A DNA stretch of 36,297 bases, from NCBI GenBank assembly GCA_002688095.1, contig NZCA01000004.1, positions 1 through 36,297 on the forward strand, written 5' to 3'. Of the stretch, positions 2,933 through 18,206 are shown one piece after another; the stretch's first letter is position 1; every line of letters starts with the position of its first letter. The notes under the pieces were generated by a model. That model saw nothing but the letters and a program-made list of their open reading frames with translations. It had not been told where the DNA came from and did not search any database. The DNA comes from Nanobdellota archaeon (GTDB taxonomy: Archaea; Nanobdellota; Nanobdellia; SCGC-AAA011-G17; ARS1403). A program made the translations under genes and the position numbers.

Positions 2933-3925
2933 ATGAATAAACTACCCTTTGAGAGGGAATTGGGAATTTTGGAAAAGAAAAAGGAAGAGACTAATCCAGA
3001 ATTTGGGAAAAGACCTGAAGAAAGAAGTGTGGAGGAATTATTGGATTTTGGAATCATCAACCTCAATAAAAGTTCAGGTCCAACGAGTCACCAAACGAGT
3101 GATTATGTCAAAAAGATCCTAAAGGTAAAACGCGCTGGACACTCTGGAACGTTAGCGATTTGAAAAAATCAACGAAATCCCAAGGTAACTGGTGTATTAC
3201 CAATAGCTTTGAATAGAGGGACGAGAGTTTTAAAGTTTTTATTAACTGCTGGGAAAGAATATGTGTGTTTGATGCATATACATGAAGATGTCAAGGAATC
3301 TAAGATAAAAAAGGTTATGAAGAAGTTTGTGGGAAAGAATATTCAAAAACCCCCGGTTAGATCAGCGGTTAAAAGAGTGGAAAGAGAAAGAACTGTTTAT
3401 TACTTAGAGATATTAGAAATTGATGAGAGAGATGTTTTATTTAAAGTAGGGTGTGAAGCTGGGACTTACATAAGAACACTGTGTGTACAAATTGGAAGGG
3501 AATTAGGAACGGGGGCACATATGGCTCAATTGGTAAGGACTAAAGTAGCTAATTTTAATGATTCAGATTTTGTAAGTTTGCATGATGTAAAAGATGCTTA
3601 TGAATTCTATAAAGAGGGGGACTGGGAAAAGTTTAGGGAGATTCTCCAACCAATTGAAAATGCTGTAAGTCATCTTCCTAAAGTTTGGATAAATGATAAT
3701 GCTGTAGATTCTTTATGTCATGGAGCAGATTTGAATGTGCCTGGTATTGTTAAATTAAATGAGGGTATTGAGAAAGAGGATTTAGTGGCTATTATGTCCC
3801 TTAAAGATGAATTAATTTGCGTTGGGAATGCAGAATTAAGTTCAAATGAAATGGTGAAGAAAAAAAGGGGAAAAGCGGTTAAAACTTCTAAAGTATTTAT
3901 GTTGAGAGGGGTTTATTCTAAATAA
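2933..3925 (+). CDS. cbf5: Cbf5 (archaeal TruB-like pseudouridine synthase), split by a 21-nt intron
   Basis: Catalytic subunit of H/ACA ribonucleoprotein, which converts uridine to pseudouridine in rRNA, and also a tRNA U55 synthase in archaea. Exon 1 is 2933-3155 and exon 2 is 3177-3925; joined they encode 323 residues, the usual archaeal length. N-terminal motifs are NLNKSSGPTSHQTSDYV and RAGHSGTL. Exon 2 continues PKVTGVLPIALNRGTRVLK, the thumb and AGTYIRTLCVQIG motifs, then a C-terminal PUA domain from about residue 240. Read directly, the frame ends at TGA 3161-3163. Removing 3156-3176 restores GTLDPKVTG, with the catalytic Asp75 codon formed across the junction. The gene is usually next to L14e in archaea but is displaced here. 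Its 3' end overlaps the convergent gene by 8 nt. Confidence 0.95.
3156..3176 (+). other. Archaeal pre-mRNA intron with bulge-helix-bulge splice motif in cbf5
   Basis: The 21-nt insertion is in frame, contains UGA and interrupts the catalytic Asp codon (phase 1, G^AT). The pre-mRNA folds as follows. The central 4-bp helix pairs CGUU 3150-3153 with AACG 3171-3174. Bulge 1 is AG|C at 3154-3156 and bulge 2 is AA|A at 3175-3177. The inner helix pairs GAUU 3157-3160 with AAUC 3167-3170 around loop UGAAAA. The outer helix pairs 3142-3149 with 3178-3185, with two mismatches and one U-G. This is the substrate geometry of the archaeal tRNA-splicing endonuclease, which cuts inside each 3-nt bulge. cbf5 introns of this kind are established in Crenarchaeota. 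Confidence 0.9.
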
Positions 3926-11150: not shown

Positions 11151-11756
11151 ATGCTTGGACATATTTGCGGGGATGGAACGATAGTTAGATGTCGTCCTGA
11201 AAAAGGAATAAGGACTTCCTATTCAAATAGTGAAATAGAATTGATTAAAGGGTTTGATTTTTTAATGAAAAAAATTTTTGGAGAAGTGGAATCTTACTTA
11301 TATAATGTTGATATTTCTTCCCAGGTTGTAAAAACAAGTTTTACATATACAAAACCCCATTATCAAATATCTTATCCAACAATTATATCCTATTTAATTC
11401 TCTCTGTTTATGATTACAAATATAATGATAAAATGGAATTTCCTGAATTTATTTTAGACCTGGATGAAAAAGCAAGGTGTGGATTTCTTAGAGCTTTATT
11501 TGATGACGAAGGGTATGTAAATGAAAAACATAAAGTGGTAAGGATTGGTATGAAACCTTTTAATTTTATGAAAGGTGTTGATAGAACTCTAAATTCTGTA
11601 GGAATTGAAACAAAGGGTATAAGAAGAGAAAAAGATAAAATGTATTACATAAAAATATATAATAAAAAGAATCAAATTTTATATAGTAAGAAGATTAACT
11701 TTAAACATCCACTAAAGAAAAAAAGATTAAAGAAACTTATCAATTTCATAAAATAA
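11151..11756 (+). CDS. LAGLIDADG homing endonuclease domain (C-terminal half)
   Basis: Two LAGLIDADG motifs are present: AEMLGHICGDG at the start (conserved Asp8 counted from this ATG) and CGFLRALFDDEG at about 110-121. This is a single-chain, two-motif nuclease that would cut a long specific DNA site. The C-terminus is basic (KHPLKKKRLKKLINFIK). The frame is open upstream of the ATG back to 11064, and the conserved lead-in FPIKIDGDFAE lies before the ATG, so 11151 is not the natural start. It sits between cellular genes, not inside a host gene, which fits a mobile free-standing element. Confidence 0.8.
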   Translation: MLGHICGDGTIVRCRPEKGIRTSYSNSEIELIKGFDFLMKKIFGEVESYLYNVDISSQVVKTSFTYTKPHYQISYPTIISYLILSVYDYKYNDKMEFPEFILDLDEKARCGFLRALFDDEGYVNEKHKVVRIGMKPFNFMKGVDRTLNSVGIETKGIRREKDKMYYIKIYNKKNQILYSKKINFKHPLKKKRLKKLINFIK

Positions 11757-12188: not shown

Positions 12189-13946
12189 ATGCATAGAGGT
12201 GTATGTTTGATAATTTTGGTACTTTTTAGTTGCTCTGTTTGGGGTATTAGAATAAATGAGATAATGTACGATCCTGACTGTTCAGATAATTATTGCGAAT
12301 ATATTGAAATCTATAATAATGAAACTAGTTCAGTTAATATGACCGGTTGGAAGATAAGTGATAATTCTGGAGAAGATATTTTGGATGACTTAATTTTACC
12401 AGGAAAAAGTTATGGTTTAATTGTAGATTCAGATACAAGAGTGTATGGTAATTTTGATATTGGAAGTGTTGAATGGATATATGTGGATGATGATGCAATT
12501 GGAAATGGTTTAAGCAATATTGAAATTATAACTTTGAAAGATGGAAATGGGACCATAGTGGACTCAATTAGTTATAATGAAAGTACGGGGGGAGAAAGTT
12601 ATAGTTATTTGGATGGGAATTGGAATATTACTGTTGCAAGTCCTGGAAAGGACAACATAAATAATGAAGAAAGTGTAAATGATTATTCGGTAATTAGTAT
12701 TTCCGAATTTCTACCCGATCCAGAAGGGGAAGATGATGCGATTATGCCAAATGGAGAATGGGTAGAATTGTATAATAATGGGAATGAAAATTTGGATTTA
12801 TTGGGTTTTAGTTTGTATGATAATTATGGAAGTGAAACAGATGTTATTATAACTGAAACTACCACTTTAGATGGAACGATAATTGGAAGTAAAGATTATT
12901 TGATTGTATATATGAATGGGGTGAGTGGATTTTTAAGTAATGGGGGTTTTGAGAAAATAAGTTTGTATGATTTAAGGGATAACTTGGTTGATGAAGTAAG
13001 TTATGAAGGTTCTGAAGAAGGGGTGAGTTGGAGTTTTGCAGAGGAAAAATGGCAAAAATCAGCTCCCACATTGGGTTCTGAGAATTTAGATAGCTCTAAT
13101 TCTATTCAATCGGAAATAAGGATTGAAGATATTTATGATTTAGGAGATGGAAAAGCAGAATGGGGGGATATTATTCGGACTAAATTATTTGTTAAAAAGG
13201 GAAATACAAATAAAAACGTAGTTTGGATATGGGTAGAAGATAGAGAAGGAAATAGGGTGACTAAGAAAAGTAAATTTAATGTTTATGATAGATTTTTGAA
13301 TTATACTTTTACTTATCCTATTGGAATTCCAGATAATTGTAATGATGATTTTGTAAGTGGTTTAGGGAAAATAAAAATAAGTGGATTAGATACGGGGGAT
13401 GAAGAAGAATTAGAAATAAGAGGAAAACCTAATTGTAAAGGTGGAACTAAGAAAGTTAGAACCAAAAGTTTTGAATATGAATTATCGGAATATCCTAAAG
13501 AAATTAAAGATAACTCGGAATTTGAAAGTAAATTAAGATTAAAGAATAATTTAAAAGAAGATCTGAAAGCAGATGTATGGAGTTATGTTTATTCTGGGAA
13601 AAAACACTTTGTTAAAGAAAGTGACGAGGAAAATATGCAAACAATAAGTTTGAAGGCTAATGAAGAAAAAACAATAATATTGAAAAATGAGATTACGGAT
13701 GTGAGTAAGGCTAAGTCTCCTAGGTTAAAAGTAAAAATATTAAAAGAAGATAGAAAAACTCCTTATGATATTACTAAAGAACTTAAAGTCTCTAAGAACG
13801 AAAACGTTAAAAAAGGAATTGATACCATTACTGGGGAAGTTATATACGAAAGTAAAGGTGTTAAAGCACAAAGATCTGCTGTTTTCTTTTTCAGCGGATT
13901 AATGATGACTCTGGGCATTTATAGCTTTGTAAGAAAATGGAATTAA
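12189..13946 (+). CDS. Secreted membrane-anchored lamin-tail-domain protein
   Basis: A 585-residue cell-surface protein. A signal peptide occupies about residues 1-19 (MHRGVCLIILVLFSCSVWG). Two lamin-tail domains (LTD) follow: IRINEIMYDPDCSDNYCEYI with EIYNNETSSVNMTGWKISD, then ISEFLPDPEGEDD with GEWVELYNNGNENLDLLG. A beta-rich region runs from about 300 to 545, and a C-terminal membrane helix (about 563-580, AVFFFSGLMMTLGIYSF) ends in a short basic tail. The extracytoplasmic LTD pairs may bind ligands or carry enzymes, but no partner is evident. It overlaps the next gene by 10 nt. Confidence 0.85.
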   Translation: MHRGVCLIILVLFSCSVWGIRINEIMYDPDCSDNYCEYIEIYNNETSSVNMTGWKISDNSGEDILDDLILPGKSYGLIVDSDTRVYGNFDIGSVEWIYVDDDAIGNGLSNIEIITLKDGNGTIVDSISYNESTGGESYSYLDGNWNITVASPGKDNINNEESVNDYSVISISEFLPDPEGEDDAIMPNGEWVELYNNGNENLDLLGFSLYDNYGSETDVIITETTTLDGTIIGSKDYLIVYMNGVSGFLSNGGFEKISLYDLRDNLVDEVSYEGSEEGVSWSFAEEKWQKSAPTLGSENLDSSNSIQSEIRIEDIYDLGDGKAEWGDIIRTKLFVKKGNTNKNVVWIWVEDREGNRVTKKSKFNVYDRFLNYTFTYPIGIPDNCNDDFVSGLGKIKISGLDTGDEEELEIRGKPNCKGGTKKVRTKSFEYELSEYPKEIKDNSEFESKLRLKNNLKEDLKADVWSYVYSGKKHFVKESDEENMQTISLKANEEKTIILKNEITDVSKAKSPRLKVKILKEDRKTPYDITKELKVSKNENVKKGIDTITGEVIYESKGVKAQRSAVFFFSGLMMTLGIYSFVRKWN

Positions 13947-16402: not shown

Positions 16403-16927
16403 ATGGAAATTAAGGATTTAAAATTTTTAGCTAAAGGGAAGAGAAGTGAAGTTTACACTGGTTTCTTAGGTAAGAAAAAAGTTAGTGTTAAAGTGAGTCC
16501 TCGGGCTGGAATAGAAAGTAAATGGTTGAAGTTATTAAATAAACATAAAATCGGACCTAAATTTGTGAAAGTGTCTAAAAATGAGTTAATTTATGAATTT
16601 ATTTCTGGGAAGAGGATTGGGGAATGTTTGAATAAGAAGGTAGTTAAGAAAGTTTTAATGCAGTGCAGGATTTTAGATAAATTAAAAATTGACAAGAAGG
16701 AGTTAACTAATCCGTATAAACATATTTTAGTTCACAAAGGGAAGGTTGTTATGATTGATTTTGAAAGATGTCATAAAGTAAAAAAGAGTAAGAATGTGAC
16801 TCAGTTTGGGGAATATATAATGAGGAAAAAATTAGTTCCAAGAGTTAGTTTTACTAAATTACTGATAGAATATAAAAAAAATCAAAGTGAAAAGAATTTT
16901 AAGAAGATTTTGTCTTTCTTTTCTTAG
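16403..16927 (+). CDS. Bud32/RIO-like small protein kinase
   Basis: A 174-residue minimal kinase of the archaeal type resembling COG2112. It has a Gly-rich-loop remnant LAKGKRSEVYTGFLG, an ATP-site Lys at about 30 (KVSVKVS), a YEFISGKRIGE hinge-like segment, and VVMIDFERC at about 115-122, where DFE stands in for DFG. I chose ATG 16403 over ATG 16352 because homology begins there and a TATA-like TTAATATATATA lies about 25 nt upstream, so the mRNA is probably leaderless. The 3' end overlaps the primase gene by 29 nt, tail to tail. Confidence 0.75.
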   Translation: MEIKDLKFLAKGKRSEVYTGFLGKKKVSVKVSPRAGIESKWLKLLNKHKIGPKFVKVSKNELIYEFISGKRIGECLNKKVVKKVLMQCRILDKLKIDKKELTNPYKHILVHKGKVVMIDFERCHKVKKSKNVTQFGEYIMRKKLVPRVSFTKLLIEYKKNQSEKNFKKILSFFS

Positions 16928-18206
16928 GTTTATGTTTTTGATGAGCAAAGAATTTTCTTTTGGAGAAATTAACAGGATTTTTAGTGTTTGTGCAGTCTAT
17001 ACATTTAATACCCATATTTTTGTAGTAAGAATCGTTATCGCAATTGGGTGGAAGGACTTTGTCTATTTGTCTTTTGTGCCAGTTTAACTGAGATTGAATA
17101 TAACCAGCATGTAAAGCTTGATAATTTTTGTTATTCCAATCAAGAACTATTTTTTCTACTTCTGTAACAGGATAACCAACGCTTTTAAGGAAATTAATTA
17201 AAATAAATAAAGCTCTTTTCCTGCCATCTTCTTTTACTCCTTTTAGGATTTGGTTTATACAAGAAGGGAAAAATTTAGTTGGAATGGCAGTCTTTAATTC
17301 TTCATAAATTTTGGATGTTTTTATTTCTTCAGGTATTTGGACTAAAGAAGGTTTTTTGTTAACAGTGTCGAAAGCTTGGATGACTAATTCAGAAGCTTCT
17401 TTTTCTGTAGTTTTTGGTAGAAAGGAAGTAGTGGTTTTTACATTTTCAATCCTAGCTTTTTTTAGATTAAATGAAGGTAAATTTTCTATTGAAATGGGAA
17501 CTGAAATTAATCCTTTTTTTTCATTTAAAGAATAAGGAGCTCGATACATGTGTCTATTTGAAATTAAAATTGTGTCTATTTCAATTATAGAAAAGGGGTT
17601 GAATTCTTCATTTTCTAATAATTCTTCTTGGGGTTTGTTTACAGCTTTAGAAATTTCTTGTAGAGTGCTAATGTCTAAAATTTTTTCTTTTAATTGGGAT
17701 TGGACTATATCTTTTAGATGGGCAGCTATAGCTCTGGGAGCTTCTGGAAATAGTAATTTGATGTCTTTTCCATTAACTTCCTTTGGAAGGGAGGAAAAGG
17801 GTACTCCCAAATGTATTCCTGATCCGCCTGAAAATTTTAAGCCTATATTTTTTATGTTATGGAATTGTAAGGCTTTGATTAACAAAGAAGCTGTTGTTTT
17901 GGCATAGTCTATGAATTTTGTATCTATATCTAAGATTAAATCCCAACCTATTCTTAATTTATCTAATTGGGGTTGAGTCATTCCCGGTTTTAATAATAAA
18001 GAATTAGACCAATGTTCTTCAGAAATATGGAAAGAGGTGGCTCCTTGTTTTGCTAATTCGAAAATATCATTTTCAAAACTTACCATATCTGGACGTTTGC
18101 CAAAATTTCCCAATCCGTATACAGCAGAAAATTCTCTATTCTGAGAAGCGTTTACAATGGCTTTTTGGATATCTTTTCTGGAATAAAATTCTAAAATGTC
18201 TGCCAT
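16899..18206 (-). CDS. priS: Single-chain archaeal primase (PriS fused to PriL Fe-S domain)
   Basis: Synthesises RNA/DNA primers. The N-terminal part is PriS: WDLILDID with catalytic Asp93 and Asp95, SGGSGIHLG at 126-134, a third Asp near 211 (IIEIDTILIS), then RHMYRAPYSLNEKKGL. From about residue 305 the chain continues as the C-terminal PriL domain (FFPSCINQILKG, ALHAGYIQSQLNWHKR). The Cys set 316, 389, 402 and 405 fits the 4Fe-4S ligands. Such a fusion is known in Nanoarchaeum equitans. TTATAAATT about 25 nt upstream suggests a leaderless mRNA. Zn-site residues of PriS are not obvious. Confidence 0.92.
   Translation of the reverse strand: MADILEFYSRKDIQKAIVNASQNREFSAVYGLGNFGKRPDMVSFENDIFELAKQGATSFHISEEHWSNSLLLKPGMTQPQLDKLRIGWDLILDIDTKFIDYAKTTASLLIKALQFHNIKNIGLKFSGGSGIHLGVPFSSLPKEVNGKDIKLLFPEAPRAIAAHLKDIVQSQLKEKILDISTLQEISKAVNKPQEELLENEEFNPFSIIEIDTILISNRHMYRAPYSLNEKKGLISVPISIENLPSFNLKKARIENVKTTTSFLPKTTEKEASELVIQAFDTVNKKPSLVQIPEEIKTSKIYEELKTAIPTKFFPSCINQILKGVKEDGRKRALFILINFLKSVGYPVTEVEKIVLDWNNKNYQALHAGYIQSQLNWHKRQIDKVLPPNCDNDSYYKNMGIKCIDCTNTKNPVNFSKRKFFAHQKHKPKKRKTKSS

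Follow-up and report, generated by a model that had tools for sequence, protein, structure and literature searches.

The cbf5 gene of the Woesearchaeota genome studied here is interrupted by an insertion that, judged from sequence comparison, is very probably (roughly 0.95) an archaeal pre-mRNA intron of the bulge-helix-bulge (BHB) type, splitting the codon for the catalytic Asp75. The window, i.e. the whole stretch of 36,297 nt that was analysed, comprises bases 1-36297 of contig C4 in draft genome G000 (605,723 bp, 15 contigs, 81% complete), whose closest named relatives in the Cbf5 searches are Candidatus Woesearchaeota MAGs. The gene lies at window positions 2933-3925 on the forward strand; its frame starts at the ATG at 2933 and is interrupted by a TGA at 3161-3163 (+), while the remainder of Cbf5 is found downstream in the same frame, up to 3925. 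Translation and alignment to Cbf5 structures delimit exon 1 (2933-3155, +; 74 codons and the first letter, G, of codon 75) and exon 2 (3177-3925, +; from the AT of the Asp codon through the stop codon). The 21 nt between them (3156-3176, +), CGATTTGAAAAAATCAACGAA, are assigned to the intron by the restoration of GAT, the BHB geometry and the same position in relatives. The spliced protein would have 323 aa, of which residues 7-323 align to archaeal Cbf5 structures (E 1e-114), with GHSGTLDPKVTG opposite GHGGTLDPKVSG in an end-to-end alignment. Unspliced mRNA would yield a fragment of 76 aa, so that a functional H/ACA pseudouridine synthase would require splicing. There is no second copy of cbf5, and the claim of the sequence-only reading that removal of the intron decides whether an active enzyme is made appears sound. 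Overall, the comparative evidence for splicing of cbf5 is strong, and cutting and ligation in the cell would be the work of EndA and RtcB.

The placement of the intron is exact. As first described from the letters, an in-frame 21-nt insertion containing UGA lies between GTL and PKVTG, with G3155 as the last base of exon 1 and A3177 as the first base of exon 2; GCGATTTGAAAAAATCAACGAAAT stands between the two motifs, where GAT or GAC is expected. Among the possible 21-nt removals, Asp is obtained solely by joining G to AT, which turns codon 75 (counted from the ATG at 2933) into GAT. This cut separates the second from the third base in both 3-nt bulges of a strict BHB, and the earlier statement that cuts at the canonical places restore Asp75 is borne out, the spliced protein aligning with Cbf5 structures. 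Pairing and folding define the elements of the motif, all on the forward strand. The central helix of 4 bp is formed by CGTT (3150-3153, in the Thr-Leu codons of exon 1) and AACG (3171-3174, in the intron), or CGUU/AACG in the RNA. The bulges are A3154 G3155^C3156 (3154-3156, 5' splice site) and A3175 A3176^A3177 (3175-3177, 3' splice site). Within the intron, GATTT (3157-3161) pairs with AAATC (3166-3170) around a GAAA loop (whole element 3157-3170), giving an inner stem of 5 bp rather than the 4 bp given before. The outer helix, recognized also from codon bias in relatives, joins GGAA (3146-3149, Gly-Thr codons) and TCCC (3178-3181, Asp-Pro codons) by 3 of 4 pairs, with a mismatch between A3148 and C3179. 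The arrangement of a 3-nt bulge, 4-bp helix and 3-nt bulge agrees with the minimum-energy fold of the 36-nt element, in which the central and inner helices and the 3-nt bulges are all present.

When the 21 nt are shuffled, with the splice points fixed by homology, the central helix arises in 2.3% of cases, and in 0.002% it is accompanied by an inner stem of 5 bp or more. The fold of a longer 59-nt segment is no more stable than its shuffles (z -0.38), and an Rfam search gave tRNA as the sole match. A blind scan of the genome (605,723 bp) for BHB-like joins of open reading frames returned 74 loose matches and does not discriminate without homology. Because such loose joins are common in an AT-rich genome, and because the longer fold is not unusually stable, the motif alone is weak evidence; proof of a BHB intron lies in its exact placement and conservation.

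Insertions at the identical position, between the G and the AT of the Asp codon, occur in 19 cbf5 genes, in line with the proposal that the position be compared among relatives. They are found in 13 of the 103 genomes of the order (12 by pattern search and G034 by hand, in five family-level groups), in two genomes elsewhere in the class, on one Woesearchaeota contig (L044) and in three Bathyarchaeia. Four bathyarchaeal loci carry the intron (L095, L096, L097 and L108), counted as three since that of L097 is the same as that of L096; these introns at the Asp codon are 21 nt long, and no mention of them was found in the literature searched. Most other relatives have cbf5 genes with no insertion in the Cbf5 searches. 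Phylum-wide pattern matches in G057, G104, G250 and others were dropped as chance matches in intron-free cbf5 or in unrelated DNA. The cbf5 of G003 (L114) has a frame break near IHSE with no signs of an intron, due to an indel or an assembly error.

The insertions measure 13 (in G074), 15, 16, 20, 21, 22 or 29 nt, and the 4-bp central helix is kept in all 19. At the wobble base of the Thr codon A-U, C-G, G-C and U-A pairs are all present, and pairing as good as this arises in just 7 of 100,000 cases when the 3' strands are shuffled; the suggested covariance check thus shows compensatory changes in the helix. The shortest introns (13-16 nt) have an inner stem of 0-2 bp and are therefore relaxed, bulge-helix-loop forms. 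With relatives at 13-15 nt and a known range beginning at 16, the description of the 21-nt intron as extremely short does not hold.

An assembly error or a decayed pseudogene might be suspected in a draft of 15 contigs at 81% completeness. It is largely refuted, and very improbable, since separately assembled relatives have insertions at the same nucleotide, of other sequence and length but with the same pairing. Furthermore, dN of 0.13-0.23 against dS of 0.59-0.86 per site in both exons (G000, G001, G005 and G006) indicates that both are under purifying selection, and the one TruB_N match region in the whole genome points to a single-copy TruB/Cbf5 gene. Readthrough or recoding of the stop, with the insertion retained in the protein, would fit the length here, a multiple of three with one TGA. 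It is rejected as the least credible of the explanations considered: the insertions of relatives contain TAA or TAG, or shift the frame (13, 16, 20, 22 and 29 nt), no codon for the catalytic Asp would be left, and the covariation of the BHB would be left unexplained.

The codons flanking the BHB intron also bear its mark. The outer helix consists of a Gly codon paired with a Pro codon. Gly is encoded by GGG in 17 of 18 intron-bearing cbf5 genes vs 22 of 106 intron-free ones (Fisher 2e-9), and Pro by CCY in 18 of 18 vs 34 of 106 (Fisher 2e-8), both values being inflated by relatedness, as the genomes are not independent and the P values are accordingly optimistic. The window's own cbf5 is an exception, with GGA as its Gly codon. 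A codon bias tied to the presence of the intron is what constraint at the RNA level predicts. In any cbf5 the outer helix is nearly supplied by the conserved Gly-Thr and Asp-Pro codons, and the site may for this reason be predisposed to BHB introns.

On a tree of 68 proteins, the presence of the intron requires 10 changes, of which at least seven are forced by well-supported branches; within one genus, for example, G006 has a cbf5 intron of 15 nt and G001 has none. This shows repeated gain or loss. A single ancestral origin and repeated gain would fit the tree alike, gain not being separable from loss, and so the earlier remark that the intron could have been kept or gained independently stands as far as repeated gain or loss goes, without a choice between the two. 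Common descent with the crenarchaeal intron may or may not apply; the spread is patchy (7-10 changes), in an alignment that has no crenarchaeal sequences.

Patchiness of this kind (7-10 tree changes) could also come from a mobile or selfish insertion, persisting as EndA excises it harmlessly and re-entering sites where exon codons can form part of a BHB. The conserved Gly-Thr and Asp-Pro codons provide the outer-helix pairing, a LAGLIDADG ORF adjoins rtcB, two distant genomes share an identical rtcB intron of 12 nt (see below), and both cbf5 and rtcB host inteins. The idea is plausible yet somewhat doubtful: at 13-29 nt the cbf5 introns have no coding content, neither a donor nor a means of insertion is seen, and ancestral presence followed by losses fits equally.

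Splicing of the BHB intron would follow the route of archaeal tRNA. The Gly-Thr-Leu codons of exon 1, the intron and the Asp-Pro codons of exon 2 would fold into the bulge-helix-bulge, EndA (the tRNA-splicing endonuclease) would cut each 3-nt bulge between its second and third nucleotides, and RtcB with archease would seal the exons to give GAT, the codon for the catalytic Asp75. The genome contains one EndA gene of alpha-type (contig C2, L133 1186-1788; 200 aa, PF01974 and PF02778), with the catalytic subunit of Nanoarchaeum equitans as best PDB match, followed by the M. jannaschii enzyme. Relatives have at most one full-length EndA gene per genome (G105 also has a partial copy where a contig ends); EndA was not found in G010, nor in G005 and G071, two genomes with the cbf5 intron, perhaps due to genome incompleteness. 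Weaker E-values for PF01974 give no second gene, at a sensitivity that a strongly diverged beta subunit might escape. Genes for RtcB and archease are present, and ARAGORN reports candidate tRNA introns in Met, Arg(TCT), Tyr, Gly and Thr genes, some of these calls being doubtful. Together with the BHB in 19 of 19 genes, the codon bias and purifying selection, this lends support to the view of a functional splicing event in a DPANN genome.

On contig C13 (L134) of this genome, rtcB is likewise interrupted, by 31 nt between HWG and YGFPIGG. Removal of AACATTTTGGTTTAGGCTAATTTGTCTCTTT joins T to AC, restoring Tyr, and the 4-bp central helix includes two G-U pairs. The same site is used in G001 (28 nt) and G003 (30 nt), with differing sequence and stronger inner stems, and also in G072, G368 and G105; it is occupied in 4 of the 103 genomes of the order. 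Further sites are a Trp codon (G022, 31 nt), the I-N-C region (G001, 30 nt; G003, 31 nt; G047, 29 nt) and the Ile codon of GGIGF (GGI^GFD), where the distant genomes G368 (L182) and G057 (L195) have an identical 12-nt insertion, TTTAAACCTTAG. In all, the putative rtcB introns occur at four conserved sites, up to two per gene, and are 12-33 nt long. A protein-restoring boundary along with a 4-bp central helix is found in 12 of 13 insertions, where about 2 would be expected; the control value for the second site of G001 is uninformative. No earlier report of rtcB introns was found in the literature searched (preprints and subscription papers lay outside the search). In the rtcB operon of L134 an ORF of 275 aa of the LAGLIDADG type lies between archease and rtcB. 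The 12-nt insertion of G057 is immediately upstream of an intein, and RtcB inteins occur in other relatives.

If the rtcB introns are spliced, RtcB must already be there for more of it to be made. The chances are about even that BHB splicing in Woesearchaeota processes its own ligase, in a loop which limits itself and controls Cbf5 too, and in which an EndA encoded by one gene works on introns of 12-13 nt with hardly any inner helix. A comparison of G000 and G001 ORFs (654 to 816 ORFs, about 450 with matches each way), covering G001 in part, with antisense and low-complexity noise set aside and such that shared introns would be missed, gives interruptions in cbf5 and rtcB alone. Both are RNA-processing genes, which could suggest a regulatory switch, with splicing efficiency setting the level of Cbf5 and, via the rtcB introns, that of the ligase. 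Splicing decides whether active enzyme is produced, and negative regulation by the cbf5 intron has been proposed for Crenarchaeota (PMC2738675). We consider such a switch unlikely, as frequent gain and loss, even inside one genus, suggests a dispensable intron.

As the sequence-only reading stated, cbf5 introns are known in Crenarchaeota. In Desulfurococcales and Sulfolobales (Yokobori 2009, PMC2738675), they measure 16-44 bp and interrupt the catalytic Asp codon after its first letter; cDNA confirmed them in several species. Gene, site, phase and the cut after the second bulge base are the same here, so the kind of intron is already known; the crenarchaeal introns are likewise very short and patchy, with losses, and the 21 nt found here are within their range. 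The differences are the phylum, the sizes (13-29 nt), a central helix that is always 4 bp, and the enzyme, in that the crenarchaeal case was linked to a hetero-oligomeric (alpha-beta)2 EndA while the hosts here show a single alpha-type EndA gene. Archaeal tRNA introns share the BHB geometry and presumably the same EndA and RtcB, and their known range of 11-175 nt covers the present sizes, but here the host is protein-coding and the helix is made from codons. According to a paper of 2020 (PMC7714728), the crenarchaeal cbf5 intron was, besides its own 5'-UTR case, the sole BHB intron reported in archaeal mRNA. That case, in HVO_1309 of Haloferax (PMC7714728), is also a BHB intron that is processed in an mRNA but sits in the 5' UTR and, unlike the cbf5 intron, interrupts no codon. 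In relatives (L122 and L123; G006, G034 and others), inteins of Cbf5 or RtcB interrupt conserved sites of these genes too, but by protein splicing, as large in-frame ORFs; in Cbf5 they occupy another site (TYIR.LC), following TYIRKLC or TYIRRLC, away from the intron, in L122 and L123 (G052 and G091).

Relative to the literature searched, the lineage, the sizes of 13-15 nt, the single-gene EndA and the BHB introns of rtcB, including that of this genome, appear to be new. A second, distant lineage, and Bathyarchaeia, are added to those with the same cbf5 intron site, cbf5 introns are extended down to 13 nt, and rtcB becomes a second host gene. Splicing of archaeal mRNA at BHB motifs, a rare kind, would then be far wider than reported, which puts to the test the idea that mRNA introns could emerge only with a hetero-oligomeric EndA. 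In genomes of this sort, gene callers will cut essential genes short.

Elsewhere in the window, a stand-alone ORF of the LAGLIDADG type (201 aa) is found at 11151-11756 (+), and a protein of 585 aa with two lamin tail domains is encoded at 12189-13946 (+). A protein of 435 aa at 16899-18206 (-) matches the families of both the small and the large DNA primase subunit, and represents a fused primase.
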